From assembly GCF_000474945.1 (NCBI RefSeq), contig NZ_AXDW01000011.1:124001-188000 (forward strand): a DNA stretch of 64,000 bases. Reading direction: 5' to 3'. This DNA comes from Solimonas soli DSM 21787 (GTDB taxonomy: Bacteria; Pseudomonadota; Gammaproteobacteria; Nevskiales; Nevskiaceae). The position numbers and the translations under genes were made by a program. Shown piece after piece: positions 12,203 to 63,739 of this stretch (positions are counted from its first letter, which is position 1; each line of letters begins with the position of its first letter). Under the pieces are notes generated by a model, which was given only the letters and a program-made list of their open reading frames with translations, ran no database searches and was not told the origin of the DNA.

Positions 12203-12387
12203 GCTAGGGCCTGTTAACACTAATCGCGTCGCTTGCCAGACGGCACCCCGAGGGGGCCGGCCCGTTTTGCCGCATCGCGGCGTCTCTCGTCGCTCATGTA
12301 CATCAAGTACATGTCTCTCCTCATTCCTTGCGCTGCGGCAAAACGGACTCGGCCACAGCGACGCCATTAGCGTTAACAGGCCCTAGC
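12203..12387. mobile_element. MITE-like element with about 30-bp inverted-repeat ends
   Basis: The ends GCTAGGGCCTGTTAAC... and its reverse complement pair over about 30 bases with few mismatches. The interior is itself folded: CCGTTTTGCCGCA pairs with TGCGGCAAAACGG, and CATGTACAT with ATGTACATG-like sequence. No transposase is encoded. The right end reads GGCCCTAG and overlaps the stop codon of the minus-strand LuxR gene. The shared CTAG at both outer ends may be target sequence. Confidence 0.7.
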
Positions 12388-13600
12388 CGAGATTCAGCAC
12401 GCTGTTGAGCAGCAGGCGCACGAGCATGGTCTGCCGCGTCACGCCGGTCTTGCAGAAGATCGAACGCAGATGCGTTCGCGCGGTGTTGCGACGCACGTTC
12501 ATCTTCTCCGCCGCCTCGTCGAGCGTGTAGCCCTCGGTCAGCAGCAGCGCGAGCTGCGCTTCCATGCGCGTGAGGCCGAACAGGCGACGCACGAGTTCCT
12601 GCGAAGGTTGCGCGGCATTGGCTTCCGGGTCGCGCAGGAACACGGCGACGGCCGGCCGCTGGCGGCTTTCCGACCATTGGCCGAGCGGAATCGCGCGCAC
12701 GAGAATGCCCAGCTTGGCGCGACCGGACGGGCGCGTGACGGCCATCGCCTCGACCACGCCCGGGCCTTCGGCCTCGCCGGTGCCGGCCAGCGCGGCGCGC
12801 AGCATGCGCTGCAGCTCGCGGCTCTCCTGGCTGCTCTCGATACAGAGATTGTTGCCGGACAGCCAGATGCCGTCCTTCTCGGCGAGGATGCGGCGCGCTT
12901 CCTGATTGGTCTCGACGATGTTGCCGTTCTGGTCGAAGCTGACCATGCCGAGCAGCATGCGGTTGACGGCGCCGGCGAACAGCGCGCGCTCGCATTCGAG
13001 GAAGTCGAGGCGCGCGTGCAGCTGGATCGCGCGCTTGAGGTGCGGCAGCAGCAGGCGCACCAGCGACTTGTCCTCCGCCGAGAACGGCGCCGCCGCGGGC
13101 CCGCGCGTGATGCGGAAGCGGCACTCGATGCCGTCCTTGGTGTAGATATCGGCGCCGAGCAGATGGCGCACGCCGATCGGTTCGAGGAACTCGCGGAAGT
13201 ACTGGCTCTGCATCCATTGCGGACCGATCAGCTCTTCGGCCGAGAACACATCGCCCTCGGCCAGGCGCACGAACGGATCGGCGGCGAAGAAATGCGTCTC
13301 GTAGGACTGGATGCCCTGCGTGGTGGTCGGCCCGGTGTTGATCATCACGCCGGTGCTGTCGGACGACGGCGGACGCAGCATCAAGGTGACGTGCGCGGCG
13401 CCGAGCATGTCGCGCAGCCGGGCCATGGCGGTCTGCCAGGGCGGCGATTCGGTCGGGCCGTCGTAGATGGCGCCGAGCAGCTGATCGATCTGGTCGAGCG
13501 GCGGCGTCTCGCTCTGGCGCTTGCCGGCGATGCCGATGCTGGCGCGCTTGCTGACGGCGACGTTGCGGACGCCGGACATCTGTTCGGCTGATACGGCCAT
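12383..13600 (-). CDS. LuxR-family transcriptional regulator (left boundary of steroid locus)
   Basis: The 405-residue protein has a long N-terminal sensory region (about 30-330) and a C-terminal LuxR/GerE helix-turn-helix (about 335-395; LFGLTRMEAQLALLLTEGY, NTARTHLRSIFCKTGVTRQT). It has no receiver aspartate and no autoinducer-domain signature. It is paralogous to the regulator at 62528-63739 over its whole length (LLGAIYDGP/LLDAIYEGP; ALFAGAVNRM/SLFAGAVNRL; VTRPSGRAKLG/ITRPSGRSRLG). The start follows GGAGGAGGAAGACC. Its stop codon lies in the repeat element. It probably controls the steroid genes; this is inferred from position. Confidence 0.88.
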   Translation of the reverse strand: MAVSAEQMSGVRNVAVSKRASIGIAGKRQSETPPLDQIDQLLGAIYDGPTESPPWQTAMARLRDMLGAAHVTLMLRPPSSDSTGVMINTGPTTTQGIQSYETHFFAADPFVRLAEGDVFSAEELIGPQWMQSQYFREFLEPIGVRHLLGADIYTKDGIECRFRITRGPAAAPFSAEDKSLVRLLLPHLKRAIQLHARLDFLECERALFAGAVNRMLLGMVSFDQNGNIVETNQEARRILAEKDGIWLSGNNLCIESSQESRELQRMLRAALAGTGEAEGPGVVEAMAVTRPSGRAKLGILVRAIPLGQWSESRQRPAVAVFLRDPEANAAQPSQELVRRLFGLTRMEAQLALLLTEGYTLDEAAEKMNVRRNTARTHLRSIFCKTGVTRQTMLVRLLLNSVLNLG

Positions 13601-13650
13601 GGTCTTCCTCCTCCGTTGATAGGGCCGCTGCATCTCTCGTCCTCTGCGGG

Positions 13651-13855: not shown

Positions 13856-14242
13856 GTGCCAAGCGAACAGATCATGAAAGAGGCGATGCAGGCCTATATC
13901 GATGGCTTCAACCGTGCCGATGCCGGCGCCGTCGTCGCTCTCTATGCCGACGACGCGATCGTCGAGGACCCGGTCGGCAGCAAGCCGAAGCAGGGCAGGG
14001 CCGAGATCGCCAGGTTCTACCAGATGTCGATCGCCACCGGCGCCAAGCTCAAGCTGGCCGCGCCGATCCGCGGTTCGCACGGCAATGCCGCGGCGATGGC
14101 CTTCGACGTCGAGCTGAAGATGCCCGAAGGCCAGGCCCTGATCCGCGTGATCGACGTGATGACCTTCGACGACGCCGGCAAGTTCTCCTCGATGCGCGCC
14201 TACTGGGCGCCGGGCGACATGGAGGTGATCGGTGCGAAGTGA
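13856..14242 (+). CDS. ksi: Steroid delta5-3-ketoisomerase
   Basis: The 128-residue NTF2-fold enzyme moves the double bond of delta5-3-ketosteroids to delta4 after 3beta-hydroxyl oxidation. The match to known ketosteroid isomerases is strong (ALYADDAIVEDPVGS, VIDVMTFDDAGK, MRAYW). With the GTG start, the catalytic residues are Tyr14, Asp38 and Asp100, corresponding to Tyr14/Asp38/Asp99 of the Comamonas enzyme. GGGGAG precedes the GTG. It opens a plus-strand run with two further small genes, and the next gene overlaps it by 11 bases. Confidence 0.93.
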   Translation: MPSEQIMKEAMQAYIDGFNRADAGAVVALYADDAIVEDPVGSKPKQGRAEIARFYQMSIATGAKLKLAAPIRGSHGNAAAMAFDVELKMPEGQALIRVIDVMTFDDAGKFSSMRAYWAPGDMEVIGAK

Positions 14243-14711
14243 AGGCGGCGACGCCGCGCTGCGCGAACTCGCCGACCGCCTCGAACTCGAGCGGCTCGTC
14301 GTGCGCTACGCCTACGCGATCGACGAACGCGCCTTCGAACGGCTCGACGACATCTTCACGCCGGATGCCTACATCGACTACCGCGCGATGGGCGGCATCG
14401 ACGGCGGCTATGCGCAGATCCGCGCCTGGCTGCCGCAGGCGCTCGGCGTGTTCCCGGCCTGCATGCACTTCAACGGCAACTTCCTGTTCGAGATCGACGG
14501 CGATCGCGCGAGCGGCAAGGTCGCCTGCTTCAATCCCATGGTGCTGCCGAAGGCCGACGGCGCGCCGGGCGAGGGCGACACCATGTTCCTCGGCCTCTGG
14601 TATCTCGACCGCTACGTGCGCACCGCGGCGGGCTGGCGCATCCGCGAGCGCATCGAGAAGCGCTCCTACGACTTCAACATGCCGGCGGCCTTCAGGCAGG
14701 CGATGCAATAG
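14232..14711 (+). CDS. SnoaL-like / NTF2-fold protein
   Basis: The 159-residue protein belongs to the SnoaL-like polyketide-cyclase/dehydratase group (RLELERLVVRYAYAIDERAFERLDDIFTPDAYIDY). Such proteins are common in steroid and aromatic catabolic clusters as isomerases, dehydratases or ring-hydroxylating small subunits; the exact reaction is unknown. The GTG start overlaps ksi, with GGAGG nine bases upstream, so the two are translationally linked. Confidence 0.8.
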   Translation: MRSEGGDAALRELADRLELERLVVRYAYAIDERAFERLDDIFTPDAYIDYRAMGGIDGGYAQIRAWLPQALGVFPACMHFNGNFLFEIDGDRASGKVACFNPMVLPKADGAPGEGDTMFLGLWYLDRYVRTAAGWRIRERIEKRSYDFNMPAAFRQAMQ

Positions 14712-14805
14712 CGCGCGGCCGGCGTCGCCGCGCGCCCCATTCGCGCGGCTGACCGGGCGACACGGGCGATGTCAGAATCGCGGCTCGGCCGGCGCGGGGG
14801 AGCAC

Positions 14806-15483
14806 GTGCGCATCACCTATCTTTTCGATTTCGGCGACGGCCGGCAGGCCAGCGTTGCGGTGGATGTCGACCGCGCGGCCGGCGGCGCAGCGTCCGCGGC
14901 GGCGGCCCTGCCGGACTGGGCCTTGCTGGAGCGCTCGAAATGTCCGCACTGCCCGCTCGGCGCCGAAGCGCGCCACTGCCCGGCGGCCGCCGATCTGGTG
15001 CCGACCATCGACAGCTTCGCGCAGATCATTTCGCACCAGGAAGCGCGCGTCACCGTGCGCATGGCCGAGCGCGAAGTGACGGCGAACTGCCAGGCGCAGC
15101 ATGCGCTGAGTTCGCTGGTCGGCCTCATCATGGCCAGCAGCGCCTGCCCGATCCTCGGCCGCATGCGCGGCCTGGCGCGCACGCACCTGCCGTTCGCGAG
15201 CATCGAGGAAAGCATGCTGCGCGTGGTCGGCGCTTACATGATCCGCCAGTGGCTCGATGCGCGGGAAACCTCGGCGGCGATCGGCGATCTGTCGGAACTG
15301 AAGGCGCACTACGCCGATCTCGAAGTCCTCAACAAGGCCTTCCGCCAGCGCCTGCGCAGCTCGCAGCGCCAGGATTCGGTGCTGAACGCCATCAGCTCGC
15401 TCGGCGCGCTGTCGACCGGCATCGGCATCTCACTGGAAGACGAGCTGCGCGACGTCGCCGACTACACCTTCCGGCCCGGCTAA
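14806..15483 (+). CDS. Hypothetical protein with CPHCP motif
   Basis: I do not recognise a named function. The product is 225 residues from a GTG preceded by GGGGGAG. A beta-rich start (ITYLFDFGDGRQ) leads to a cysteine cluster, Cys46-x2-Cys49 (KCPHCPLG) and Cys58 (HCPAA), then a mostly helical remainder with further cysteines (SSACPILG). The cysteines could bind zinc or an iron-sulfur centre. It has no signal peptide or membrane segment. It follows the two NTF2-fold genes and runs convergent to kshA. Confidence 0.7.
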   Translation: MRITYLFDFGDGRQASVAVDVDRAAGGAASAAAALPDWALLERSKCPHCPLGAEARHCPAAADLVPTIDSFAQIISHQEARVTVRMAEREVTANCQAQHALSSLVGLIMASSACPILGRMRGLARTHLPFASIEESMLRVVGAYMIRQWLDARETSAAIGDLSELKAHYADLEVLNKAFRQRLRSSQRQDSVLNAISSLGALSTGIGISLEDELRDVADYTFRPG

Positions 15484-15531: not shown

Positions 15532-16647
15532 CTAGCCGTTGGCCACCATCGGCAGGCTGGCCTCGCTCTGCTCGCGCATCTCCTCCGGCGCCGCTTCCAT
15601 GCCGCGCGGCACGTGGATGCCTTCGACCTGCTTGAGGTATTCCTGCTTCCTGGCGCGCGGGTTGTAGAACTGCTTGTACCAGACGCGCTGCTTGAGGAAG
15701 GCGCCGTCGCCCTGCACGAACAGGCCCTGCAGGCAGGGCCGCTTGTGCTTCCACACCTCGAAGTCCTGCGCGAAGGCGGCGAGCGCTACGTCCTGGTACT
15801 GGCGCGCGGCGATGTTGTCCTGCGCCGTCGCCGGGCTGCCGTCGGAGGTACGCACCAGCAGCGCGTGCCAGACATAGGCGCTGCCGTCGTCGACCGGCGT
15901 GTGCGCGATGAAGATGTAAGAGTCGTACAGGCCGCTCATGCGCGTGATGAGAATGCTGGGGCCGTGATAGACCGCCTCGGTGACCAGCATCGGTCCGCCT
16001 TCGGCGATCAGCGTGCGATGGCCGCCGCCCATGCGCTGGATCGCCAGATGGCCGCGGAATTCGTTCTCGAAGAACTGGGTGCGCGAACCGTGCACCGGGC
16101 CGAAGTGCGCGGCGTCGGTGATGTTGTCGACGATCTCCTGCGGATGCACGTCGACGCGGCCGAGATCGTCGAAGGTCCAGTGCGTCCATGCCGGATCGTT
16201 CCACTCCTGCAGGAACGGCGCGTCCCATTCGGGTGCGCCACCCTCGGCATCGTGCCAGACGAAGACCGCGCCCATGCTCTCGACGACCGGCCAGGAGCGC
16301 ACTTTCGCGGCCGGCGGAATCGGTCCGCTGGAATACGGAATCTGGTTGCACTTGCCGTCCGGGCCGAAGCGCCAGGCGTGGTACGGGCAGCGAATCGAAT
16401 CGCCTTCTACGGCGCCGTCCTGCGCCACGTAGGAAGTGCTGTTGCGCGCCAGGTGCGTGCCCATGTGCGGGCAGTAGGCATCGAGCAGCACGACCTTGCC
16501 GCTGTCCTTGCCGCGGTAGAGCGCGAACTCCTGACCGAAGAAGCGCACGCCCTGCGGCTTGTCGGTGACCTTCGCCGATTCGGCGACCATGAACCAGCCG
16601 CGCGGAAAGGTGAATTCACCGAGGTTGTAGTCTTTCGAGCTGGCCAT
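15532..16647 (-). CDS. kshA: 3-ketosteroid 9alpha-hydroxylase oxygenase subunit (KshA-type Rieske)
   Basis: The 371-residue Rieske non-haem iron oxygenase has a [2Fe-2S] site of Cys59, His61 (CPHMGTH), Cys87 and His90 (CPYHAWRF). The mononuclear iron motif NITDAAHFGPVH includes His181 and His186, with Asn175 at the position of KshA's catalytic asparagine. KshA hydroxylates C9 of androstadienedione and, with KstD, opens ring B. The start is MASSKDY, after GGGAG; two upstream in-frame codons look non-coding. The partner reductase KshB is not in the window. Confidence 0.9.
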   Translation of the reverse strand: MASSKDYNLGEFTFPRGWFMVAESAKVTDKPQGVRFFGQEFALYRGKDSGKVVLLDAYCPHMGTHLARNSTSYVAQDGAVEGDSIRCPYHAWRFGPDGKCNQIPYSSGPIPPAAKVRSWPVVESMGAVFVWHDAEGGAPEWDAPFLQEWNDPAWTHWTFDDLGRVDVHPQEIVDNITDAAHFGPVHGSRTQFFENEFRGHLAIQRMGGGHRTLIAEGGPMLVTEAVYHGPSILITRMSGLYDSYIFIAHTPVDDGSAYVWHALLVRTSDGSPATAQDNIAARQYQDVALAAFAQDFEVWKHKRPCLQGLFVQGDGAFLKQRVWYKQFYNPRARKQEYLKQVEGIHVPRGMEAAPEEMREQSEASLPMVANG

Positions 16648-16834: not shown

Positions 16835-18349
16835 ATGCGCCAGGTCCCGCGGATGCGCCTGCGCCCGGCGGCGCTGGCCGTCCTGTGCACGCTGCTCGCC
16901 GCCTGCGGCGCGAGCAGCGCGCCGGCCGGCGGCGACGCCCCGCAGCTGCGCCGCGAAGGCCGCTGGCTGGTCGACGCGCAGGACCGCGTGGTGCTGCTGC
17001 ACGGCGTCAATCTGGTCTGGAAGAACGCACCCTACGTGCCGCCGGACACGGCGGCGGGCTTCGCCGGCGCCGACGCCGACTGGCTCGCCGCGCACGGCTT
17101 CAACAGCGCGCGCATCGGCGTGCTCTGGGTCGGCGTCACCCCCGCGGCGCCGGGCGTCGTCGATCGCGGCTATCTGGACGCCTGGGACCGCGTGATCGGC
17201 CTGCTCGCCGCCCGGCGCATCTGGATGCTGTTCGATTTCCACCAGGACATGCTCGGGCCGATCTACCAGGGCGAGGGCGTGCCGGACTGGGCGGTCGAGC
17301 AACTCGTCGGCAATCTGACGACCACGCTCGGCGCACCGACCCTCGGCTTTCCTTTCAACTACTTCACGCCGCAGCTGTCGCAGGCCTACGACAGGCTGTG
17401 GGCCGACAGCGGCAGCGTGCGCGACGGCTTTCGCGACGCCTGGGTCGCGGTGGCGCGGCGCTGGAAGGATCAGCCGTACTCGATGGGCTACAACCTGTTC
17501 AACGAACCCTGGGCCGGGCTCGAATATCCGCTCTGCCTGATTCCGCTGCTCGGCTGCCCGGCGCACGACGCGAACGAGCTGCAGCCTTTCTACGAATACG
17601 CGCTCGCCGGCATCCGCGCCGTCGATCCGCACAACATGGTGTGGTTCGAGTCCGAGCCGCAAGGCAGCAGCATCGGCACGCCGAAGGGTTTCACGCCGGT
17701 CGCCGGCGAGACGCAGCTCGGTTATTCCTTCCACGACTACTGTCCGCTGGCGGCGCTGACCCAGGCCGTGCAGCTCGGCCTGCTCGACGCGCTGCCGGTG
17801 TCGGCGACCTGCGACATTTTCAACGCCATGTCGCTCGACGAGGCCCGCGATCAGGCGCAGCGCATGAATGCCGTCGAACTGCTCACCGAGTTCGGCGCCA
17901 GCGACGATCTCGCCATCCTGCGCCAGACCACCGCCGCCGCCGACGCGCGGCTGATCGGCTGGCAGTACTGGCAGTACAAGAACTGGGCCGATCCGACCAC
18001 GACCTCCCAGGAAAGCGGCGCGCAGGGCCTGTTCGCCGACGACGCCGATCTCTCGACCGCCAAGACCGACAAGCTGCGCGTGCTGGTGCGCACCTTCCCG
18101 CAGGCGACCGCCGGCATTCCCGAAGAACTGTCCTTCGATCCGGACAGCGGCGCCTTCCACTACCGCTACGCGCCGCGCGAGGCGCGCGGGCCGACGCGGA
18201 TCTTCGTGCCGGTCGCGCTGCATTACCCGAGCGGCTATGCGGTCACGGTGAGCGGCGCGCGCGTCGTCTCGGCCGCCAACGCGACGACGCTGGAGCTGGA
18301 GAACGCCGACGGCGCGCAGGAGGTGATCGTCGATGTGCGCGCGCAGTGA
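16835..18349 (+). CDS. GH5-family glycoside hydrolase lipoprotein (endoglycosylceramidase / steryl-glycosidase type)
   Basis: The 504-residue product has a lipoprotein signal peptide with lipobox LAAC and a GH5 TIM barrel. The acid/base is Glu224 (GYNLFNEPW) and the probable nucleophile Glu352 (ELLTEFGAS). FDFHQDM and the C-terminal small beta domain fit endoglycosylceramidase-like subfamilies, which also include fungal steryl-beta-glucosidases. GGGGAGAG precedes the start. Placed between kshA and the HsaA-like gene, it may free sterols or bile-type steroids from glycosides at the cell surface. The family is firm; the substrate is inference. Confidence 0.85.
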   Translation: MRQVPRMRLRPAALAVLCTLLAACGASSAPAGGDAPQLRREGRWLVDAQDRVVLLHGVNLVWKNAPYVPPDTAAGFAGADADWLAAHGFNSARIGVLWVGVTPAAPGVVDRGYLDAWDRVIGLLAARRIWMLFDFHQDMLGPIYQGEGVPDWAVEQLVGNLTTTLGAPTLGFPFNYFTPQLSQAYDRLWADSGSVRDGFRDAWVAVARRWKDQPYSMGYNLFNEPWAGLEYPLCLIPLLGCPAHDANELQPFYEYALAGIRAVDPHNMVWFESEPQGSSIGTPKGFTPVAGETQLGYSFHDYCPLAALTQAVQLGLLDALPVSATCDIFNAMSLDEARDQAQRMNAVELLTEFGASDDLAILRQTTAAADARLIGWQYWQYKNWADPTTTSQESGAQGLFADDADLSTAKTDKLRVLVRTFPQATAGIPEELSFDPDSGAFHYRYAPREARGPTRIFVPVALHYPSGYAVTVSGARVVSAANATTLELENADGAQEVIVDVRAQ

Positions 18350-18475: not shown

Positions 18476-19669
18476 GTGCCCAGCCAAGCCGCAAAGACAG
18501 TTCCCATCTCCCCCGACGTGCTGGTGCAGCGCGCGCGCGACATGGTGCCGGTGCTCGTCGGCCGCGCGCAGCAGGCCGAACAGGCGCGCATGGTGCCGGT
18601 CGAGAGCGTGCGCGAGATGGAGGAGGCCGGCTTCTTCCGCGTGCTGCAGCCGAAGCTGTACGGCGGCTACGAGATGGACCCGCAGGTCTTCTACGACATC
18701 GTCATGACGCTGGCCGAGGGCTGCATGTCGACGGCCTGGATCTACGGCGTCATCGGCGTGCACAACTGGCAGATCGCCCTGTTCGATCCGAAGGCCGCGG
18801 CAGACGTGTGGAAGGACGACACGAATGTGCGCATCGCCTCGACCTACATGCCGAAAGGCCAGGTCAAGCCGGTCGAAGGCGGCTTCCGCTTCTCCGGCCG
18901 CTGGGGTTTCTCCAGCGGCTGCGATCACTGCGACTGGATCTTCCTCGGCGGCCTGATCTTCAACGAAGGCCAGCCGCCCGAATACCGCACCTTCCTGCTG
19001 CCGAAGTCGGATTTCGAGATCGTCGACACCTGGCACGTCATGGGCCTCAAGGGCACCGGCTCCAAGGACATCGTCGTCAAGGACGTGTTCGTGCCGGAGT
19101 ACCGCACGCACAAGGGCATGGACGGTTTCATGGGCACCAACCCGGGCCGCCACACCTTCACCGCCGATCTGTACAAGCTGCCGTTCGGGCAGATCTTCGT
19201 GCGCGCGGTGTCGTCGGCGGCGATCGGCGGCCTGCAGGGCGCGCTGAACACCTTCGTCGATTTCGCCAAGGTGCGCGTCGGCGACATGGGCAACAAGACC
19301 GCCGAGCAGCCGCCGGCGCAGCTGGCCGCCGCCGAGGCCGCCGTGGCGATCGACGAGATGAAGCTGGTCCTGCGCCGCAACTTCGACGTGCTGATGGGCA
19401 AGGTGCGCGCCGGCGAGCCGCTCGACGACATCGCGCAGCGCGTGCATTTCCGCTACCAGGCCTCGCAGGTCGTCGAGCGCTGCGCCCGGCATGCCTACCA
19501 GCTGTTCTCGGCCTGCGGCGGTCGCGGCATCTTCACCGACTTCCCGCTGCACCGTTACCTGCTCGACATCTACGCCGCGCGCGGCCACTACGCGAACAAC
19601 CCCGACCAGTTCGGCCGCAACTACGGCGCCGTCATGCTCGGCCGCGACAACACCGACGTGTTTATTTGA
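18476..19669 (+). CDS. Flavin-dependent monooxygenase, HsaA-like oxygenase component
   Basis: The 397-residue protein has the acyl-CoA-dehydrogenase fold of two-component FMN monooxygenases, with the group's N-terminus (LVGRAQQAEQARMVPVESVREMEEAGFFRVLQP shortened) and the central FSGRWGFSSGCDHCDW. In steroid degraders HsaA hydroxylates 3-HSA on the aromatic A-ring before meta-cleavage. HsaC-like and KstD/KshA genes in the same locus support that role; hydroxylation of a related phenol is the alternative. The start is GTG after AGGAG. No flavin reductase (HsaB) is nearby. Confidence 0.82.
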   Translation: MPSQAAKTVPISPDVLVQRARDMVPVLVGRAQQAEQARMVPVESVREMEEAGFFRVLQPKLYGGYEMDPQVFYDIVMTLAEGCMSTAWIYGVIGVHNWQIALFDPKAAADVWKDDTNVRIASTYMPKGQVKPVEGGFRFSGRWGFSSGCDHCDWIFLGGLIFNEGQPPEYRTFLLPKSDFEIVDTWHVMGLKGTGSKDIVVKDVFVPEYRTHKGMDGFMGTNPGRHTFTADLYKLPFGQIFVRAVSSAAIGGLQGALNTFVDFAKVRVGDMGNKTAEQPPAQLAAAEAAVAIDEMKLVLRRNFDVLMGKVRAGEPLDDIAQRVHFRYQASQVVERCARHAYQLFSACGGRGIFTDFPLHRYLLDIYAARGHYANNPDQFGRNYGAVMLGRDNTDVFI

Positions 19670-33156: not shown

Positions 33157-33177
33157 GAAGGGCACACACAAAAAAAT

Positions 33178-43739: not shown

Positions 43740-43854
43740 TGCGCGTCGTCCGTGATCAGCGACTGGTGACTTGTGATTCGTAGAAGCGCGTGACGCACCG
43801 ACGAATCTTCATTTGCCAATCGCCAATCACGCATCACCAATCACGGGGAAAGAG
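43740..43854. repeat. Degenerate GTGATT/AATCAC hairpin spacer
   Basis: The gap between the two dehydrogenase genes contains GTGATCAGCGACTGGTGACT with TGTGATTCGT and, facing it, ACGAATCTTC and CCAATCACGCATCACCAATC. Repeated GTGATTGG-like units pair across a loop. It looks like an intergenic palindromic repeat, unlike the surrounding coding DNA and lower in GC. Confidence 0.55.
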
Positions 43855-52362: not shown

Positions 52363-52818
52363 ATGAAACCCGTGTTCGATTCCGCCGACGCCGTGCTCGC
52401 CGCCGTCGGCCAAACGCTGGGCACCAGCGACTGGGTGACGATCACGCAGCGGCGCATCAACCAGTTCGCCGACGCGACGGACGATCACCAGTGGATTCAC
52501 GTCGACGCCGAGCAGGCCGGGTCCGGTCCGTTCGGCGCGACCATCGCGCACGGCTATCTGACCCTGTCGCTGGCGTCGCGCTTCCTGCCCGAGATCGTCG
52601 ACGTGCGCATGAAGATGGGCGTCAACTACGGCTGCGAGAAAGTGCGTTTTCCGGCGCCGGTGAAGGTCAACAGCCGCATTCGCGGCAAGGGCGAACTCAT
52701 CGCCGCCGAACGCAGCAAGGACGGCGCCGTGCAGGCGGTGATCCGCGTCACCGTCGAGATCGACGGCGAAGCCAAGCCGGCGTGCATCGCCGACACCATC
52801 AGCCGTTACTACTTCTAG
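52363..52818 (+). CDS. MaoC-family enoyl-CoA hydratase
   Basis: The 151-residue single hot-dog hydratase has the hydratase-2 motif [14 protein letters not shown] with Asp and His, followed by [15 protein letters not shown]. It would hydrate the enoyl-CoA made by the FadE34-like enzyme. It starts five bases after the SDR stop. Many steroid MaoC enzymes are heterodimers; no second MaoC gene is seen here, so it may be homodimeric. Confidence 0.9.
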
Positions 52819-55391: not shown

Positions 55392-57964
55392 AGGGCGCAC
55401 TGCATCGCGGTGTCGACGGCATCTCCGACTTCCTGCTCGGCTGGCGTCATCTGCTGTCGGTCGTCTTCCTCGCCCTGACGATCTTCTTCGGCTGGAGCGC
55501 GACGCGCGTCCAGCTCGACCCCGGCTTCCTCAAGATGATCCCCATCAAGCATGAGTACATGCGCACGATGATGGATTACATGAAGAACTTCTCGGGCGCC
55601 AACAACCTGCTCGTGAACCTGCGCTGGAAGGGCGAGGGCGACATCTACAACGCCGAATTCATGGAGGCGATGCGCAAGGCGACCGACGACGTCTTCCTGA
55701 TCCCCGGCATCGACCGCACGCACGTCTCGTCGATCTTCACGCCGAACACCTACTACATCGAAATCACCGAGGACGGCTTCAAGGGCGAGCCGGTGGTGCC
55801 GGCACGCTTCTCGGCGACGCCGGAGCAGCTTGCGCGCGTGCGCCACAACGTCTCGCTGTCCGGCCAGGTCGGCCTGCTGGTCGCCAACGACTACCAGGCG
55901 GCGCTGATCCGCGCCGACCTGCAGGAAGCCGACACCGGCAATCCGGCCAAGGCGGAGATCTTCTACCGCCAGGTGATGAACAAGCTCGGCGACATCCGCG
56001 GCCGCTTCGAGAGCCAGACCAAGTACGTCTACAGGCTCAAGGTCGACCGCGACGGCTTCAAGGCCGGCGACGTCATCGACGAGGGTTACGTCGACTATGG
56101 CTGGCTGCTCGGCTCGCAGACTTTCTTCGGCGTGCCGCACGGCGGCGGCGAAGCGGTGCCGTTCAAGGGCAGCGAGCTGACGGTCGAGAAGGTCAAGAAC
56201 CCCGACTACGACCCGAACCTAGAGGTCAACATCATCGGCTTCGCACAGCTGCTCGCCGACGTCATCGGCGGCCTGGTCGGCGTGTTCGCCTTCTTCGCGC
56301 TCGCCTTCCTCATCACGCTGGCCTTGCTGTTTTTCTACTCGCGCTCGGTGCGCCTGACGCTCGCCGCCATCGTCGTCGCCATGCTGCCGGTGCTGTGGCT
56401 GATCGGCATCCTGCCGCTGATCGGCTTCGGCATCGATCCGATGTCGATCCTCGTGCCGTTCCTGATCTTCTCGATCGGCGTCAGCCACGCCGTGCAGATG
56501 ACCAACGCCTGGCGGCACGAAGTGGTGGCCGGCTGCACGCCGGTCGAGGCTTCGCGCGCGGCGTTCCGCAAGCTGTTCATTCCCGGCGCCGTCGCCCTGC
56601 TCACCAACGCGCTCGGCTTCGCGGTGATCATGCTGATCGACATCCCGATCGTGCACGAGCTGGGCATCACCGCCTGCCTCGGCGTGCTGCTGATGATCAT
56701 CACCAACAAGATGATCCTGCCGATCATCCTCACGCACATCCGCCTCGAAGAGCGCAGCCGCGTGCATTCGCTGAAGCCGCCCGGCCCGAGGCAGATGGCG
56801 ATCTGGAAGCAGATGGCCAAGTGCGCCGAGCCGAAGCCCGCGCTGGCCGTGTTCGCCATCTGCCTCGCCCTGCTGGCGGTGACCACGCAGGTTTCGCGCA
56901 GCATGGTGATCGGCGATTCCGGCACCGGCGCGCCGGAGCTGCGCCAGGATTCGCGCTACAACCACGACAACCGCGCGATCGCCGATTCGTACAACATCGG
57001 CACCGACGTGCTCAGCGTGATCGTCGAGGCCAAGGACTTCGAGGGCGATTCCTGCCTGCACTATCCGGTCGTCAACCTCATCGACCGCTTCGAGCTGTTC
57101 ATGCGCGGCGTCGACGGCGTGCGCTCGGTGACCGGCGTCGGCGGCATCGGCAAGCTGGTGATCTCGGCGTTCAACGAGGGCAATCCGCGCTGGCGCGCCC
57201 TGCCGCGTTCGCAGGTCGGCCTGTCGACCGGCTCGCGCGCCTTCGATCCGAATCTCGGCCTCAACACCGACGGCTGCAAGGCGATCCAGATCCTCGTGTT
57301 CATGAAGGACCACGAGGGCGCCAACATCGCGCATGCCCTGCACGAGGCCAAGCGCTTCATCGAGGACAATCCGGTCGACGGCGTCAAGATGCGCCTGGCC
57401 AGCGGCAACGTCGGCGTGATGGCGGCGACCAACGAGGCCGTCGAAGCGGCGGAAGCGAAGATGCTGCTGGCCATCTTCGGCGCCCTGGCGCTGCTCTGCC
57501 TCATCACCTTCCGCTCCTGGCGCGCGACGCTCTGCGTGCTGGTGCCGCTGACCATGGTGTCGATCTTCTGCAACGCGCTGATGGCCTCGCTCGGCATCGG
57601 CCTGAAAGTCGCCACCCTGCCGGTCGTCGCGCTCGGCGTCGGCGTCGGCGTCGACTACGGCATCTACCTGTTCGAGCGCATCCAGCACGATCTCGCCAAG
57701 GGCCTGTCGTTCGCCGACGCCTTCCGCGAGGCCATGCTCGCGCGCGGCGTCGCCGCCGTGTTCACGGCGATCACCATGGCGATCGGCGTCGGCACCTGGA
57801 CGATGTCGGCGCTCAAGTTCCAGGCCGACATGGGCCTGCTGCTGAGCTTCATGTTCCTCGTCAACATGCTCGGCGCGATCTGCCTGCTGCCGGCGCTCGG
57901 CGCCTGGCTGTTCCGCGATCGCGCGGCGGCGGCGCTGGGCGCGCGGCGCCTCAGCGAGGCCTGA
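55388..57964 (+). CDS. MMPL/RND-family lipid or steroid transporter
   Basis: The 858-residue protein has RND topology: an N-terminal helix, a large periplasmic domain, a five- to six-helix block, then the same again (about 12 membrane helices). The repeated blocks include VGVFAFFALAFLITLALLFF and AIFGALALLCLITFRSW, with ALGVGVGVDYGIYLFERI in the second half. MMPL and hopanoid transporters move lipids through the envelope. Coupling to the Ycf48-like gene and the steroid setting suggest sterol transport; direction is unknown. Confidence 0.88.
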   Translation: MKGALHRGVDGISDFLLGWRHLLSVVFLALTIFFGWSATRVQLDPGFLKMIPIKHEYMRTMMDYMKNFSGANNLLVNLRWKGEGDIYNAEFMEAMRKATDDVFLIPGIDRTHVSSIFTPNTYYIEITEDGFKGEPVVPARFSATPEQLARVRHNVSLSGQVGLLVANDYQAALIRADLQEADTGNPAKAEIFYRQVMNKLGDIRGRFESQTKYVYRLKVDRDGFKAGDVIDEGYVDYGWLLGSQTFFGVPHGGGEAVPFKGSELTVEKVKNPDYDPNLEVNIIGFAQLLADVIGGLVGVFAFFALAFLITLALLFFYSRSVRLTLAAIVVAMLPVLWLIGILPLIGFGIDPMSILVPFLIFSIGVSHAVQMTNAWRHEVVAGCTPVEASRAAFRKLFIPGAVALLTNALGFAVIMLIDIPIVHELGITACLGVLLMIITNKMILPIILTHIRLEERSRVHSLKPPGPRQMAIWKQMAKCAEPKPALAVFAICLALLAVTTQVSRSMVIGDSGTGAPELRQDSRYNHDNRAIADSYNIGTDVLSVIVEAKDFEGDSCLHYPVVNLIDRFELFMRGVDGVRSVTGVGGIGKLVISAFNEGNPRWRALPRSQVGLSTGSRAFDPNLGLNTDGCKAIQILVFMKDHEGANIAHALHEAKRFIEDNPVDGVKMRLASGNVGVMAATNEAVEAAEAKMLLAIFGALALLCLITFRSWRATLCVLVPLTMVSIFCNALMASLGIGLKVATLPVVALGVGVGVDYGIYLFERIQHDLAKGLSFADAFREAMLARGVAAVFTAITMAIGVGTWTMSALKFQADMGLLLSFMFLVNMLGAICLLPALGAWLFRDRAAAALGARRLSEA

Positions 57965-58475: not shown

Positions 58476-59756
58476 ATGAGCGCCAGCACCGAACCGGGCC
58501 GCGTCGAAATCGACGCGAAGATCTTCAACCCGTATTCGAAGGACTTCATCCGCTCGCCGTGGGCGACCTGGGAGACGCTGATCCGCGACTACCCGGTGGC
58601 CTGGCACAAGGAGCTGCAGATGTGGGTCGTCAGCGGCCACGAGCCGCTGCTCGACATGATGAAGGACAACCGCTTCTCGACGAACTACAAGCACTGGCAG
58701 TACGCGCCGCCGGCCAAGCCGTTCGAGCAGCAGAACCACTTCGAGCGGGCCATGGACGCCGGCCTGTTCGCGGTGAGCCCGACCGAGCACCTGCGCCTGC
58801 GCAAGCTGACGATGCCGGCGTTCTCCAAGCCGGTGATGGGCAAGATCGACGCCAAGATCCGCGACCTGATCACGACCTGCTTCGACGAGATCGGCACGCC
58901 GGAACAGTTCGATGCGTTCACCATGATCGCCGAGAAGCTGCCGGTGCGTTCGATCGCGCGCATGGTCGGCGTGCCGACCAATATGGAATCGTTCTTCCAC
59001 GACTTCGCGGTCAACGTCGTCAAGGCGACGCGCATCAACCTGCCGCCGAAGGAACGCGACAAGGCGATGCAGGATTCGCTGGCCGGCTTCCGGTATTTCC
59101 TCGACATCATCAAGGAACGGCGCGCCGCGCCGCACCCGGGCGACGATTTCATCGGCAGCCTGGTCGCCGCGTCCGACAACGGCGACCGGCTCACCGATTA
59201 CCAGATCGTCTCGGTGATCCAGGCGGTGATCGTTGCCGGCTCCGACACCGCGACCGATCTGCACACCTACGCGATCAAGGGCCTGCTCAGCCATCCCGAC
59301 CAGTACGCCCTGCTGCGCGAAAGGCCCGAGCTGATGGAGAACGCCATCATCGAGCTGCTGCGCGTCGGTTCCTTCGGCAAGACACCGCAGTTCCGCTTCG
59401 TCAGCGAAGACCTCGAGTGGCGCGGCCAGAAGTTCAGGAAGGGCGAGTCGGTGCTGATCAACATCACCACCGCCTGGATCGATCCGGCGAAGTGGGAGAG
59501 CCCGCACCGGCTCGACATCACGCGCAAGCTCGACGGCAACCTGGTGTTCGGCGCCGGCGCGCACTTCTGCATCGGCACGTATCTGGTGCGCGTGCAGGGC
59601 GGCCTGATGCTGCAGGAGCTGATGCGGCGCTTCCCGCAGGCCGGGCTGCTGGATGGCGACGGCCACGTCGAGTACGACTACAACCACCACAACGCGCGCC
59701 GCATCAATCGCCTGATCGTCAAGACCAATGCGGTCGCGCAGCGCAGGGCAGCCTGA
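58476..59756 (+). CDS. Cytochrome P450 (first of three)
   Basis: The 426-residue soluble bacterial P450 has the I-helix oxygen-binding motif VIVAGSDTATD, the haem loop FGAGAHFCIG with Cys365 and an ELLRVG segment at the K helix. The K-helix ExxR reads ELLR. It likely hydroxylates a steroid; the position, such as the side-chain terminus, is unknown. GGAGGAGGAT precedes the ATG. It heads a run of three P450 genes without a ferredoxin or reductase gene. Confidence 0.9.
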   Translation: MSASTEPGRVEIDAKIFNPYSKDFIRSPWATWETLIRDYPVAWHKELQMWVVSGHEPLLDMMKDNRFSTNYKHWQYAPPAKPFEQQNHFERAMDAGLFAVSPTEHLRLRKLTMPAFSKPVMGKIDAKIRDLITTCFDEIGTPEQFDAFTMIAEKLPVRSIARMVGVPTNMESFFHDFAVNVVKATRINLPPKERDKAMQDSLAGFRYFLDIIKERRAAPHPGDDFIGSLVAASDNGDRLTDYQIVSVIQAVIVAGSDTATDLHTYAIKGLLSHPDQYALLRERPELMENAIIELLRVGSFGKTPQFRFVSEDLEWRGQKFRKGESVLINITTAWIDPAKWESPHRLDITRKLDGNLVFGAGAHFCIGTYLVRVQGGLMLQELMRRFPQAGLLDGDGHVEYDYNHHNARRINRLIVKTNAVAQRRAA

Positions 59757-59823
59757 GCGGCGCCACATTTCCAGCATGGCCGGCGCGCACGATCGCCGGC
59801 CTTCAAGTTCGAGGAGCCGCATC

Positions 59824-61233
59824 ATGGGCAGCGCAGAACCGACTCTCCCCAGACACACGCCGCCGCCGGTGGTGCGCGGCCTGCCGCTGCTGGGCAGCAC
59901 GCTGGAGATGGCGGCCGATCCGGCGCGCTTCTTCGCGCGCTGCTATCGCGAGTACGGCCAGGTCTTCAAGGTCCGCGTGTTCGGCAACGAGCTGACGGTG
60001 ATCGCCGGCGCCGAAGCCGCCAACTTCATGGGCACGCGCGAGGGCAAGGAATCGCTGCGCTCCAAGGAAGCCTGGGAGCCGCTGGTCCAGGAGTTCGGCG
60101 CCTCGAAAATGCTGACCGCGGTCGACGGCGAGCTGCACAAGCAGCTGCGCGCGGTGATGAAGCGCGGCTTCTCCAAGGAATCGATCAAGGGCCGCTACCA
60201 GGAAGTGCTCGACATCACCCGCACCGCGCTGCTGCGCGACTGGAAGGTCGGCAGCAAGGTGCCGGTCGTGCAGGCCATGCAGTACCTCGTCGTCGAGCAG
60301 CTCGGCATGGTGCTGACCGGGCAGACGCCGCGCGAGTACGTGCAGGACATCCGCACCACGATCCTCTACATCCTCAACGTGCTGGTCACGCGCCAGCGCC
60401 CGAAGTTCCTCATGAAGATGCCGAAGTACAAGCGCGCCAAGGCACGCATGTTCGAGCTCGGCCGCAAGATGATCCAGCAGTACCAGGACCGCGTCGCGCG
60501 CGGCGGGGCGGTCGCCGAGGAATTCAAGACGCTGATCGACGACGTGATGGAGGCGCACCAGCGCGATCCGGAGCTGATCCCGGCCGGCGACCTGGTGATG
60601 CTGATGACCGGCCCCTACGTCGCCGGCCTCGACACCGTCGCCAACACCACCTCGGCGATCGTCTACACCGTGCTCAAGCATCCCGAGGTGCTGGCGCGCA
60701 TCCACGCCGAGGTCGACGCGCTGTACGCCAAGGGCCGGCCGGTCAACGAAGACGAGTTCATGAAGGAACTGCCGGCGCTCAACGGCGCGATCATGGAGAC
60801 CATGCGCCTCTATCCGATCGCCGTCGCGCAGATCCGCACGGCGAACAAGGACTTCATGTTCGGCGGCCACCTGATCCGCGAGGGCGAGATGATCTATCTC
60901 GGCACCGCGGTGCCGCATTTCCAGAGCGAGTTCTACGCCGACGCCGACAAGTTCGACATCGACCGCTACGGCAAGGCGCGCGCCGAGCACATGCAGGTCG
61001 GTGCCTATTCGCCGTACGGCCGTGGTCCGCACACCTGCCTCGGCAAGAGCCTCGCCGAAGTGCTGCTGGCGATGACCATGGCCGAGGTCTTCTACAACTT
61101 CGATCTCGAGCTGCCGTCGCCGGACTACGTGCTCAAGACCAAGACCGCGCCGACGCCCGGGCCGTCGATGAGCTTCAAGGTCAGGGTCAAGGGGCGGCGC
61201 GTGCCGGGTGTGGCGCCGCCGCGCGCGGCCTAG
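59824..61233 (+). CDS. Cytochrome P450 (CYP51-clan-like)
   Basis: The 469-residue P450 differs from its neighbours: a proline-rich lead (PPPVVRGLPLLGSTLEMA), I helix GPYVAGLDTVANTT, K helix ETMR and haem loop YSPYGRGPHTCLG with Cys405. Overall form recalls sterol-14-demethylase and eukaryote-like P450s, yet the CYP51 motif GQHTS is lacking. A steroid-ring hydroxylase is plausible. GAGGAGCC lies before the start, 67 bases after the first P450 gene. Confidence 0.9.
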   Translation: MGSAEPTLPRHTPPPVVRGLPLLGSTLEMAADPARFFARCYREYGQVFKVRVFGNELTVIAGAEAANFMGTREGKESLRSKEAWEPLVQEFGASKMLTAVDGELHKQLRAVMKRGFSKESIKGRYQEVLDITRTALLRDWKVGSKVPVVQAMQYLVVEQLGMVLTGQTPREYVQDIRTTILYILNVLVTRQRPKFLMKMPKYKRAKARMFELGRKMIQQYQDRVARGGAVAEEFKTLIDDVMEAHQRDPELIPAGDLVMLMTGPYVAGLDTVANTTSAIVYTVLKHPEVLARIHAEVDALYAKGRPVNEDEFMKELPALNGAIMETMRLYPIAVAQIRTANKDFMFGGHLIREGEMIYLGTAVPHFQSEFYADADKFDIDRYGKARAEHMQVGAYSPYGRGPHTCLGKSLAEVLLAMTMAEVFYNFDLELPSPDYVLKTKTAPTPGPSMSFKVRVKGRRVPGVAPPRAA

Positions 61234-61347
61234 CACCGCCGCGCCGCGACCGCGCATTTATGCGCCGTTTGAGGGATGAACGCGGCGCGCGCCATCGCCG
61301 ATGCTCGCCGTGCGTCGCCGATCGAAGCGGCGCGCGAGGAGAATGCG

Positions 61348-62541
61348 ATGCAGGCCCTGCGACTCGACCCCTACGAACATCAGTTCCACTGGGATCCGTA
61401 TCCGACCTACGCGGCGCTGCGCGAGCGCGATCCGGTGCATTACAACGAGGAGCTGGATCTCTGGTTCCTCACCAGGTGGGACGACGTGTTCGCCGCGTTC
61501 CGCGATTTCAGGAGCTTCGTCAACACCGGCGCCACCTCGCTCGAAAGGGGCTCGACCGAGCAGCTGCCGTACCCGATGTTCATCTTCAGCGATCCGCCGG
61601 CGCACACGCGGATCCGCAATCTGTTCATGCCGCTGATGACGCCGGTCGCGGTCAGGGCGCTCGAGCAGTACATCCGCGAGCGCACGCGCGCGCTGCTGGC
61701 GCCGGTGCTGGCGCGCGGTCGCTTCGACTTCGTCGCCGATCTCGGCTGCTTCCTGCCGATGGACGTCATCTCGACGCTGACCGCCGTGCCGGTCGAGGAC
61801 CAGGACCGCGTGCGCGGCTGGGCCGACGATCTGATCGCGCGCGAGGACAAGCAGCACGCCCTGTCGGAACGCAACATCGGCGGCTTCATCAACATGGCGC
61901 AGTATTTCGAGGCACACTCGGCGCGGCAGGCCGCGGCGCCGCCCCGGCATGGCCTGCTCGGCATCATGCTGGACGCCGAGCGGGCCGGCACGATGTCGCA
62001 CGCCCAGGTCGTCGGCACGCTGATCCTGCTGGCGATCGCCGGCAACGAGACGACGACCAAGCTGATCGGCAACATGGCCTACCGCCTCTGGCAGCATCCG
62101 CATCAGCGCCGGCTGCTGCGCGACGATCCGTCGCTGATCGCCGGCGCGGTCGAGGAAACGCTGCGCTTCGACGGCTCCTCGCAGATCATCGTGCGGCGCG
62201 CCGGCCGCGACGTGACGCTGCGCGGCAAGACGATCCCGCGGGGCGCGCGCGTCGGCCTCTGCATCATTTCCGCCAACCGCGATCCCGACAGGTATCCGGA
62301 CCCGGATCGCTACGACGTGCGCCGCGGGGCACGCGATCACCTGGCCTTCGGTCTCGGCATCCACGCCTGTCTCGGCTCGGCGCTGGCGCGCCTCGAGGCG
62401 CGCGTGGTGTTCGAGGAAATTCTCGCCGCGATCCCCGACTACGAGATCGACGAGTCCGGCCTGCGGCGCGCGCACAATCCGAACGTGCGCGGCTTCACGC
62501 ACGTGCCGGCGCGCTTCACGCCGCGGCTCAGCCCAGCGTGA
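61348..62541 (+). CDS. Cytochrome P450 (third)
   Basis: The 397-residue class I-type soluble P450 has DPYPTYAALRERDPVHYNEE, I helix AIAGNETTT, K helix EETLR and haem loop FGLGIHACLG with Cys341. GAGGAGAATGCG precedes the ATG at 61348; the open frame continues 72 bases further up. The substrate is probably a steroid by context. The 3' end overlaps the convergent LuxR gene by 14 bases. Confidence 0.9.
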   Translation: MQALRLDPYEHQFHWDPYPTYAALRERDPVHYNEELDLWFLTRWDDVFAAFRDFRSFVNTGATSLERGSTEQLPYPMFIFSDPPAHTRIRNLFMPLMTPVAVRALEQYIRERTRALLAPVLARGRFDFVADLGCFLPMDVISTLTAVPVEDQDRVRGWADDLIAREDKQHALSERNIGGFINMAQYFEAHSARQAAAPPRHGLLGIMLDAERAGTMSHAQVVGTLILLAIAGNETTTKLIGNMAYRLWQHPHQRRLLRDDPSLIAGAVEETLRFDGSSQIIVRRAGRDVTLRGKTIPRGARVGLCIISANRDPDRYPDPDRYDVRRGARDHLAFGLGIHACLGSALARLEARVVFEEILAAIPDYEIDESGLRRAHNPNVRGFTHVPARFTPRLSPA

Positions 62542-63739
62542 AGACGCTCTTCAGCATCAGGCGCACCAGCGTCGTCTGCCGGGTCACGCCGGTCTTGCTG
62601 AAGATCGAGCGCAGATGCGTGCGCGCGGTGTTGCGGCGGATGTTCATCAGGTCCGCCGTCTCGTCCAGCGAGTGGCCGTCGGTCAGGTACATCGCCAGGC
62701 GCGTCTCGACGCGGGTCAGGCCGAGCAGGCGCCGCGCGATCTCCTGCGCGGTCTGCGGCGTGCTCGCTTCCGGATCGCGCAGATAGAGGACGGCGGCCGG
62801 GCTGCGCTCGTGCTCCGGCCAGCTGCCGGGCGGCAGGGCCTTGATCAGCACGCCGAGGCGGCTGCGCCCCGAAGGCCGCGTGATCGGCATCGCCTCGGCG
62901 ACGCCGGGCAGTCCCTTGCCGCCGGCCTTGCGGATCGCCAGCTCGATCAGCCGCTGCAGCTCGCGCTTCTCCTGCGCGCTGTCGGTGATCAGGCCGCCGT
63001 TCATGCCGAGCGCGATGCCGTCGCGCTCGGCGAGGATGCGGCGCGCCTCGTCGTTCATGTCGAGGAGGGCGCCGCTCGCCGACAGGCTGATGACGCCGAG
63101 CGCCAGCCGGTTCACCGCGCCGGCGAACAGGCTGCGCTCCGATTCCAGGGAGTCGACGCGCACCTGCTGGCGGATCGCGCGCTTCAGATGCGGCAGGATG
63201 AAGCGCAGCAGGGCACGCTCGCGATCGCCGAACGGCGGCGCCGCATGCGGCCGCGCGACGCGCACCTGGCACTCGACGCCTTCGGCGGAGCGCAGGTCGG
63301 CGCCGATCACGTAGCGCACGTCGAGCGGCTTCAGGTAGTCGCGATAGATGGCGTTGTCCAGCCACGCCTCGCCGATCAGCTCCTCCGGCGTCACCACTTC
63401 GCCCTCGTCGAGATTGACGAAGGGATCGAAGGCGAACAGATGCTTGGTGTACGACTCCATCGCATGATCGTCCTCGTAGCCGATGTGCGACATCGTGCCG
63501 AAGCGATCCGCCGACGGCGACCGCACGATGAGCGCGACGTGCGAGGCATCGAGCCGCTGCTTGAGCAGGCGCAGCGCGCCGTCCCACGCCGGGCGCTCGG
63601 CCGGACCCTCGTAGATCGCATCGAGCAGGCCGTTGAGTTCGTCGTCCTCGAGACCGGCGAGCAGCTGCAGCGGCGCCAGCGGCGGCGGACGCGACGCGAC
63701 GCGCGCCGAAGGGTTCAGGTAGCGGACCTTGCCGGACAT
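62528..63739 (-). CDS. LuxR-family transcriptional regulator (right boundary of steroid locus)
   Basis: The 403-residue paralogue of the regulator at 12383-13600 has the same layout and length, ending in a LuxR helix-turn-helix (LLGLTRVETRLAMYLTDGHS, NTARTHLRSIFSKTGVTRQT). GGAGGAAGAAGACG before MSGKVRYL nearly repeats the leader of the other gene, so both the gene and its translation signal were duplicated. Upstream in-frame ATGs at 63787 and 63793 are less likely starts. Steroid sensing by its long N-terminal region is inferred. Confidence 0.88.
   Translation of the reverse strand: MSGKVRYLNPSARVASRPPPLAPLQLLAGLEDDELNGLLDAIYEGPAERPAWDGALRLLKQRLDASHVALIVRSPSADRFGTMSHIGYEDDHAMESYTKHLFAFDPFVNLDEGEVVTPEELIGEAWLDNAIYRDYLKPLDVRYVIGADLRSAEGVECQVRVARPHAAPPFGDRERALLRFILPHLKRAIRQQVRVDSLESERSLFAGAVNRLALGVISLSASGALLDMNDEARRILAERDGIALGMNGGLITDSAQEKRELQRLIELAIRKAGGKGLPGVAEAMPITRPSGRSRLGVLIKALPPGSWPEHERSPAAVLYLRDPEASTPQTAQEIARRLLGLTRVETRLAMYLTDGHSLDETADLMNIRRNTARTHLRSIFSKTGVTRQTTLVRLMLKSVFTLG

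Follow-up and report, generated by a model that had tools for sequence, protein, structure and literature searches.

Positions 12383-63739 of the 64-kb stretch analysed here (the window, that is positions 124001-188000 of contig C8 in the host genome, labelled G000) carry an island of genes related to steroid catabolism, and this island raises two questions, namely which part of steroid breakdown it encodes and what stands at the place where the corresponding cluster of Comamonas has the hydratase gene scdN. An earlier note on this DNA had described an island combining ring degradation with degradation of the C17 side chain. The island very likely is a genuine steroid-catabolism cluster of the Comamonas type (tesB-scd) from a relative of Solimonas, and steroid catabolism via the 9,10-seco route with subsequent degradation of rings C and D is well supported. 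The combination with a side-chain pathway is not supported by the fused acyl-CoA dehydrogenase, the MaoC protein and the thiolase assigned to it, which sit in C/D-ring order. The scdN position is occupied by genes for an OB-fold protein and a thiolase-like lipid-transfer protein (Ltp), and a Comamonas-type cluster with one recurrent variation at a late step is a well-supported description of what was found.

Genes of the window were called by script; all 47 genes called in the island were scanned against Pfam, and 30 of them also against NCBIfam. The host genome (34 contigs totalling 4.19 Mb, with a completeness of 99.8%) was compared with others of its order in a set of 85 genomes, of which 45 carry the C/D-ring operon (the operon of the window and 44 others) and 40 do not. 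Thirty-seven named loci from several lineages, obtained by a search with IpdA, formed a second set. The nearest named IpdA relatives are those of Solimonas marina (86%) and S. terrae (84%); next come records titled Nevskiales, Salinisphaerales, Sinimarinibacterium, Nevskia and Oceanococcus, and then by Cupriavidus. We take Hydrocarboniphaga to be a member of the same order. Its listing among predicted steroid degraders in a passage of PMC4810484 was the sole statement on steroid catabolism in this order found in the literature, and the main text of PMC5790920 gave no match to 'nevski' or 'solimona'.

The part of the island that bears on both questions is the run of genes predicted to act on rings C and D.

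36084-36971, plus strand: HsaC/TesB-type extradiol dioxygenase (best PDB match 2zi8, E 2e-54; HsaC model 254 bits, cut-off 450)
37081-37989, plus strand: IpdA (ScdL1) (best PDB match 6co6, E 2e-74)
37992-38813, plus strand: IpdB (ScdL2) (position and conservation in 45 operons)
38810-39262, plus strand: OB-fold/zinc-ribbon protein of the DUF35 type, probable partner of Ltp (OB_ChsH2_C 28.8 bits, cut-off 27.1; zf-ChsH2 24.6 bits, cut-off 23.2)
39399-40586, plus strand: Ltp, SCP2-thiolase-like lipid-transfer protein (NF004715, 696 bits, cut-off 424)
40615-41760, plus strand: IpdC (ScdK) (NMO match in Pfam; order)
41806-42567, plus strand: EchA20-type (ScdY) ring hydrolase (NF005925, a generically named model, 388 bits, cut-off 260; order)
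42564-44940, plus strand: two acyl-CoA dehydrogenase subunits in the ScdM1M2 position (Pfam; the second scores best to IpdE2, 143 bits, cut-off 450)
44933-46081, plus strand: FadA6-type thiolase (ScdF) (NF005865, generic name, 691 bits, cut-off 591)
46513-47391, plus strand: short-chain dehydrogenase/reductase (SDR) in the ScdE position (NF005861, generic name, 433 bits, cut-off 373)
49224-51557, plus strand: fused ScdC1-ScdC2 acyl-CoA dehydrogenase (relatives with adjacent halves; position in the C/D-ring operon)
51566-52357, plus strand: SDR in the ScdG/IpdF position (NF005880, generic name, 426 bits, cut-off 336)
52363-52818, plus strand: MaoC hydratase in the ScdD position (Pfam)
52872-54080, plus strand: thiolase in the ScdJ/HIP-thiolase position (NF005494, 572 bits, cut-off 615)

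Most of these had been recognised before: IpdA is borne out by its structural match, and IpdC (NMO type), the enoyl-CoA hydratase, the thiolases, MaoC and the three cytochrome P450s discussed below by the Pfam scans. Entry 6co6 is deposited as a CoA-transferase alpha subunit and presumably represents IpdA; 2zi8, deposited as 'probable BphC', is presumably the mycobacterial HsaC, and we take both entries to be mycobacterial or rhodococcal proteins. No Pfam or NCBIfam model matched IpdB, which keeps its name through its place and its conservation. For EchA20, FadA6 and IpdF the protein types were confirmed; the specific names are presumptive and given by position, and the models above cut-off are generic.

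Gene order from hsaC to the last thiolase matches that published for Comamonas testosteroni TA441/CNB-2, where Table 1 of PMC8399759 and a passage of PMC13101464 give tesB, scdL1, scdL2, scdN, scdK, scdY, two acyl-CoA dehydrogenase genes, scdF, two open reading frames, scdE, scdC1, scdC2, scdG, scdD and the thiolase gene for 3aα-H-4α(3'-propanoate)-7aβ-methylhexahydro-1,5-indanedione (HIP). This comparison was made by protein family and position. A LuxR-type regulator is common to both clusters. The window differs in that scdC1 and scdC2 are fused, OB-fold and Ltp genes replace scdN, the two open reading frames between scdF and scdE (bile salt amidases in the same Table 1) are missing, the scdE-type gene and the fusion are separated by a thioesterase-like gene (47408) and a TPR gene (48001), the genes for ketosteroid isomerase (KSI), KshA, HsaA and KstD are close by, and two LuxR-like genes form the borders. 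The order is constant in all 45 operons, as far as the stretches show. With the actinobacterial KstR/KstR2 scheme, as outlined in a passage of PMC5380842, the window shares homologous HIP enzymes (IpdA, IpdC, FadD3 and others), but differs in order and has LuxR-like genes instead of TetR. The earlier note had rightly remarked on both differences; they arise because the cluster is of the proteobacterial type. In the proposed pathway, HIP would be activated by FadD3, its propionyl chain would be shortened by fused ScdC1C2, ScdD, ScdE and a thiolase, and IpdC, EchA20, IpdAB and FadA6 would open rings D and C to give the CoA ester of 4-methyl-5-oxo-octanedioic acid (MOODA-CoA). Gene content, gene order and co-distribution are observed here, and all reactions and the regulation are predicted.

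The slot between ipdB and ipdC, whose OB-fold gene and Ltp gene had not been named before, is never empty in the host's order: among the 45 operons, it holds the OB-fold and Ltp genes in 17, scdN in 16 and both in 12. Genome-wide searches of the 85 genomes with IpdA, ScdN and Ltp detected IpdA in 44 (threshold E 1e-30), ScdN orthologues in 28 (at least 432 bits, the next best match having 238) and Ltp orthologues in 29 (at least 680 bits, next best 205). The 44 IpdA-positive genomes comprise 16 with ScdN only, 16 with Ltp only, 12 with both and none with neither; in the 41 genomes without an IpdA match, ScdN is absent and Ltp occurs once, in a genome (G029) that is 86% complete and has its operon cut by a contig end. 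The chance of finding no genome with neither gene is 7e-5 if kinship is ignored. In the host genome no ScdN orthologue was found, its best relative being a 42% identical crotonase at C1:225550. We infer that the OB-fold protein and Ltp are a non-homologous replacement of scdN late in steroid breakdown, one that recurs among relatives of the host.

How often the slot has changed was examined on trees. On the best tree from IpdC, EchA20 and the acyl-CoA dehydrogenase, which covers 41 of the 45 operons (G004, G010, G066 and G067 were left out because a protein was missing in the stretch), 14 changes of slot state are needed, against a mean of 19.5 after shuffling; a tree from IpdA and IpdB needs 16. 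So many exchanges would also fit hitch-hiking, in which cassettes are exchanged among related operons and the two slot contents have no functional equivalence. The ScdN tree points the same way: it has two clades, one of 14 genomes that never carry Ltp and one of 14 genomes, grouping with a Cupriavidus sequence, in which 12 carry Ltp, and by this pattern the exchanged units look like cassettes. Among the named loci, eight are of the Nevskiales type (L011-L018), 18 loci of Cupriavidus, Ralstonia and Burkholderiaceae together with L038, L039 and L041 have scdN in the slot, and L032 and L045 have a slot not wholly within the stretch. In the other six (L037, L040, L043, L044, L046 and L047), none titled Nevskiales, the slot, as the only place examined, contains no scdN and no Ltp, which also fits hitch-hiking. 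Hitch-hiking has difficulty with the lack of any empty slot in the order and with the active-site motifs kept in 29 of 29 Ltp sequences, and we regard it as rather unlikely.

The sequence of Ltp itself aligns with SCP2 thiolase, benzoylsuccinyl-CoA thiolase and archaeal acetoacetyl-CoA thiolase. All 29 sequences of the order, including that of the host, contain the motifs AACASG (Cys86), VYDLS (Tyr295), FGEA (Glu345) and FGHG (His387), and the OB-fold protein has a four-Cys motif in all of its 29 sequences. A passage of PMC12329534 gives HDCF as the motif of SCP2 thiolases, YDCY for the aldolase Sal, in which Gly takes the place of the nucleophile and Cys304 is required, and YDHF together with Tyr344 for Ltp2. 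The Ltp of the window matches none of these three patterns. Compared with the SCP2 set, Ltp of the window keeps Cys86 and has YDLS in place of HDCF and GEA in place of GHP, the reference for GHP being a paralogue of the host itself ('C2'). The retained nucleophile motif could indicate that the complex is no more than a conventional final thiolase, splitting for instance 2-methyl-beta-ketoadipyl-CoA into propionyl-CoA and succinyl-CoA, acting beside scdN on an unchanged route, with another crotonase covering the loss of scdN where it occurs. The 12 operons with both slot contents agree with this, as does the host crotonase at C1:225550. Its weak points are the replacement of HDCF (motif from the same passage of PMC12329534) and GHP throughout the 29 sequences, the lack of any IpdA-positive genome of the order without both genes, and the finding that, among the scored candidates, a ScdN-like crotonase (E 1e-30) occurs in only two of the 16 IpdA-positive genomes lacking a ScdN orthologue, the host and G058. 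An ordinary thiolase is a real possibility, on the doubtful side.

The DUF35-type partner and the Tyr of the YD motif are shared with the Ltp2-ChsH2 and Sal-Shy aldolases, which belong to the same thiolase superfamily (passage of PMC12329534), and both features speak for a retro-aldolase like Sal or Ltp2 that would act after hydration by another hydratase. Unlike Sal, with Gly at the nucleophile position and Cys304, and Ltp2, with YDHF and Tyr344 (same source), Ltp of the window keeps Cys86, has Leu297 at the position of His or Cys, and is encoded in a ring-C/D operon; we find the retro-aldolase unlikely. The genome has a second pair of OB-fold and thiolase-like genes at C8:229821-231462 (L008). 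Its Gly at the Cys position and its YDAF motif make this pair more like the Ltp2 type, and it could possibly encode a side-chain aldolase.

The reading that we prefer, tentatively and at somewhat less than even confidence, is that the OB-fold protein and Ltp form a complex that cleaves a C-C bond of a CoA ester derived from MOODA, with Cys86 as the likely nucleophile and Tyr295 as the base. The hydratase step assigned to scdN after ring-C cleavage would thus be replaced by a different exit from the pathway, and scdN would become dispensable. It may likewise be, though we would not call it probable, that the complex is a distinct thiolase-superfamily enzyme (Cys86, Tyr295 and Glu345) performing C-C cleavage instead of the hydration by ScdN, so that two interchangeable, non-homologous endings have been swapped repeatedly within one order. 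Several observations weigh against replacement. Ltp-type proteins are not known as hydratases, and replacement would therefore require a changed route or another hydratase; the host crotonase with 42% identity to ScdN is present, the two ScdN clades fit cassette exchange, and the six loci of other lineages lack both genes at this place. On the tree with 14 changes, 12 of 38 inner branches are unsupported, and a pair test that takes kinship into account had four to five usable pairs, hence no power, the other gene being the same in most of them. A structure prediction for Ltp from an alignment of seven rows reached a predicted local distance difference test (pLDDT) score of 37 and was unusable.

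Pairs of OB-fold and Ltp genes also occur outside steroid clusters. Nonomuraea gerenzanensis has a pair (L110, 19588-21176) whose Ltp shows the same four motifs, and in 41 kb around it there is no steroid cluster, the sole other match being a partial acyl-CoA ligase of 34%. Among 369 gammaproteobacterial genomes drawn evenly across the class, an Ltp search (E 1e-120) yielded one other pair (G244; L171, 1303-2938), with no steroid-cluster match elsewhere in its 9.7-kb contig. The Ltp proteins of these free-standing pairs are 68-69% identical to that of the window, which suggests recruitment of the pair into the operon. No mention of an OB-fold and Ltp pair between ipdB and ipdC was found in the literature titles, abstract openings and text passages searched; a passage of PMC7793797 places a lipid-transfer protein in the estrogen edc cluster along with a chsH2-like gene, and a table of PMC12507874 includes a lipid-transfer protein. 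In 2017 it was still described as unclear what becomes of delta2-MOODA-CoA, the last remnant of the rings (passage of PMC5380842), and work on TA441 has assigned the hydratase ScdN to beta-oxidation after C-ring cleavage (passage of PMC13101464). A natural alternative to scdN, if true, would point to the reaction and supply strains in which to test it.

As to the side chain, the acyl-CoA dehydrogenase fusion had been taken for a FadE34-like protein. At E 1e-150, it matches 43 of the 85 genomes, and the fusion or its halves are present in 43 of the 45 operon genomes and in none of the 40 others. The match is nearly full-length in 24 genomes including the host (21 without an internal stop, three with one). 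In the other 19, only the C-half exceeded the threshold and the N-half lies directly adjacent in every case; gene calls gave separate genes in 12 of these stretches, a single gene in one and no settled answer in six. The scdE-type SDR gene adjoins the N-half in 16 of the 19, the other three having at least 1.3 kb of something else there, and the scdG-type SDR gene follows the C-half in 14, the other five stretches ending about there. Adjacent halves with these flanking genes indicate that the fusion belongs in the C/D-ring operon as scdC1 joined to scdC2. The FadE34-like assignment was rejected on operon place and co-occurrence, with FadE34 itself outside the direct alignments. The thiolase at 52872-54080, formerly called FadA5-like, was rejected as such with 288 bits to a steroid-thiolase model whose cut-off is 515. 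Together with MaoC, in the Comamonas order of scdE-scdC1C2-scdG-scdD-thiolase, both are better read as ring-C/D genes. Downstream of them lie further genes.

54213-57964, plus strand: YCF48-like protein and MMPL transporter (Pfam)
58476-62541, plus strand: three P450 genes (Pfam; PDB matches)

The P450s could still contribute to the degradation of a C17 side chain, and with it to sterol use, as the earlier note held. The family of the middle P450 (59824-61233) was found at E 1e-80 in 43 of the 85 genomes, all of which carry the operon; of the 45 with the operon, G008 and G011 are without it, and it occurs in none of the 40 others. Most of these 43 genomes carry a type 55-69% identical to it, of which the host has a copy at C11:35221-36579 with no steroid genes recognised nearby. 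The middle P450 is weakly similar to CYP51 (sterol 14-demethylase), its closest PDB entry, at 138 bits only. The third P450 (61276-62541) reaches 216 bits with vitamin D3 25-hydroxylase, by its name a sterol side-chain enzyme, and 212 bits to a CYP125 construct, near-equal values that make a side-chain hydroxylase possible. Set against this, the P450s resemble CYP125 no more than they do other families, and order and co-occurrence mark the fusion, MaoC and the thiolase as C/D-ring genes. The P450s may have a role in side-chain degradation; that the island encodes part of a side-chain pathway seems improbable.

The left part of the island holds genes for the steps before ring-C/D degradation and for uptake.

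13856-14242, plus strand: delta5-3-ketosteroid isomerase (KSI) (alignment with KSI in the PDB, E 4e-24; Tyr14, Asp38 and Asp100)
15532-16647, minus strand: KshA, 3-ketosteroid 9alpha-hydroxylase oxygenase (KshA_C 209 bits, Rieske 67 bits)
18518-19669, plus strand: HsaA-type oxygenase of 3-hydroxy-9,10-secoandrosta-1,3,5(10)-triene-9,17-dione (3-HSA) hydroxylase (best PDB match 2rfq, E 2e-85; NF045629 378 bits, cut-off 450)
19756-21507, plus strand: KstD, 3-ketosteroid delta1-dehydrogenase (3-oxosteroid 1-dehydrogenase model 607 bits, cut-off 788)
25776-28103, plus strand: TonB-dependent receptor, probably for uptake (Pfam)
31585-33165, minus strand: FadD3-type HIP-CoA ligase (ScdA role) (NF005801 739 bits, cut-off 657)
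34164-35870, minus strand: flavin adenine dinucleotide (FAD) protein related to KstD, candidate delta4-5alpha-dehydrogenase (TesI) (FAD_binding_2; NF005511, generic name, 708 bits, cut-off 466)

Through KSI, KstD and KshA, ring B would be opened and ring A made aromatic; cleavage of ring A, leading to HIP, would be the work of HsaA and HsaC together with enzymes of the HsaD and HsaE types, whose genes lie outside the window. The identifications of KSI with its three catalytic residues, KshA, FadD3 and the TonB receptor were reproduced by the matches listed. Those of HsaA, HsaC and KstD were reproduced too, though all three score under the cut-offs of their models, so that these names depend on the best match and on context, and the low scores count against the assignment; 2rfq is deposited as '3-HSA hydroxylase', and the dioxygenase reaches 260 bits with a BphC model (cut-off 366). 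KshA of the window is one of four KshA_C proteins in the genome; another KshA-type oxygenase gene lies on the same contig at C8:203702-205134 (L006), beside a small gene that we take to encode a rubredoxin. A second KstD-like FAD protein gene, followed by a TetR gene, is found at C8:212442-214855 (L007). Directly after the KSI gene come genes for SnoaL_4 and DUF6901 proteins (14232-15483). Between kshA and hsaA, positions 16835-18349 encode a protein with a C-terminal GH5 domain, whose best PDB match is 5ccu, a 'putative secreted endoglycosylceramidase' (E 6e-68); it might remove sugar from a steroid or lipid glycoside.

HsaD and HsaE, reported as absent, are indeed missing from the window, but genes of both types are present on the same contig (hsaD type at C8:911-1762, hsaE type at C8:111-908), about 135 kb to the left of KSI. 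A second hsaD/hsaE-type pair lies at the end of contig C15, and a second BphD-like gene at C15:73501. For HsaF, a match to only the end of the model, the last 119 positions out of 334, was found at two contig starts (C10:1-387 and C19:1-387) with equal scores and different neighbours, and the equal scores are read as probably reflecting a collapsed repeat. Searching the rest of the genome thus recovered hsaD- and hsaE-type genes and hsaF ends at contig breaks, with no clear candidate for hsaB or kshB. These results count against the proposed reading of the island. In the PDB, the HsaD-type protein of C8 (C8:917-1693) matches BphD (154 bits) better than HsaD (132 bits), and its name is therefore given by context; none of four flavin reductases in the genome could be singled out as HsaB; and a Fer2 search for KshB gave 16 places in the genome, seven of them in gene-called stretches and none convincing, so that no dedicated KshB is claimed. 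The labels that we would give to Fer2 proteins, of phenylacetate, phenol and CDP-glucose type, are presumptive, from sequence and context.

Two further genes, which had not been listed before, delimit the island.

12383-13600, minus strand: LuxR-like regulator, TeiR/TesR-like candidate, left border (GerE 20.8 bits, cut-off 23.5)
62528-63739, minus strand: LuxR-like regulator, right border (GerE 20.7 bits, cut-off 23.5)

The two proteins are 52% identical to each other and are probable TeiR/TesR-like regulators of the island. No TetR_N match occurs among the 47 window genes, in line with the reported lack of a KstR-type TetR gene; one TetR gene lies outside the window beside the second KstD (C8:214190). 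Plasmid searches with the left regulator and with the middle P450 returned distant matches only (best 48% and 35%, respectively), and inverted repeats near the LuxR-like genes included no convincing operator. The model of the left regulator (pLDDT 70.7) has structural matches that include the LuxR-type proteins RhlR and SdiA as well as phytochromes, at low template modelling scores, and is read as alpha/beta domains similar to GAF/PAS followed by a C-terminal helical part. The helix-turn-helix is thus suggested by GerE scores below cut-off and by a model of moderate confidence, and the connection with steroid genes by linkage and co-occurrence: at E 1e-40, the family is present in all 45 operon genomes (the 44 with IpdA and G029) and in none of the 40 others. 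A further copy, the third of the host, lies at C8:12546, at 11 kb from the gene of the hsaD type, and a 51% identical relative lies one gene away from hsaC in Cupriavidus. TeiR/TesR, a LuxR-type protein, controls the steroid genes of Comamonas according to passages of PMC6895838 and PMC8399759. A statement of 2019 confined tesR-like genes to Comamonas testosteroni (passage of PMC6895838), a limit qualified by a review of 2021 that places TeiR-like genes in Pseudomonas stutzeri Chol1 (passage of PMC8399759). The co-distribution of the LuxR-like family with the operon throughout the host's order bears on the same claim.

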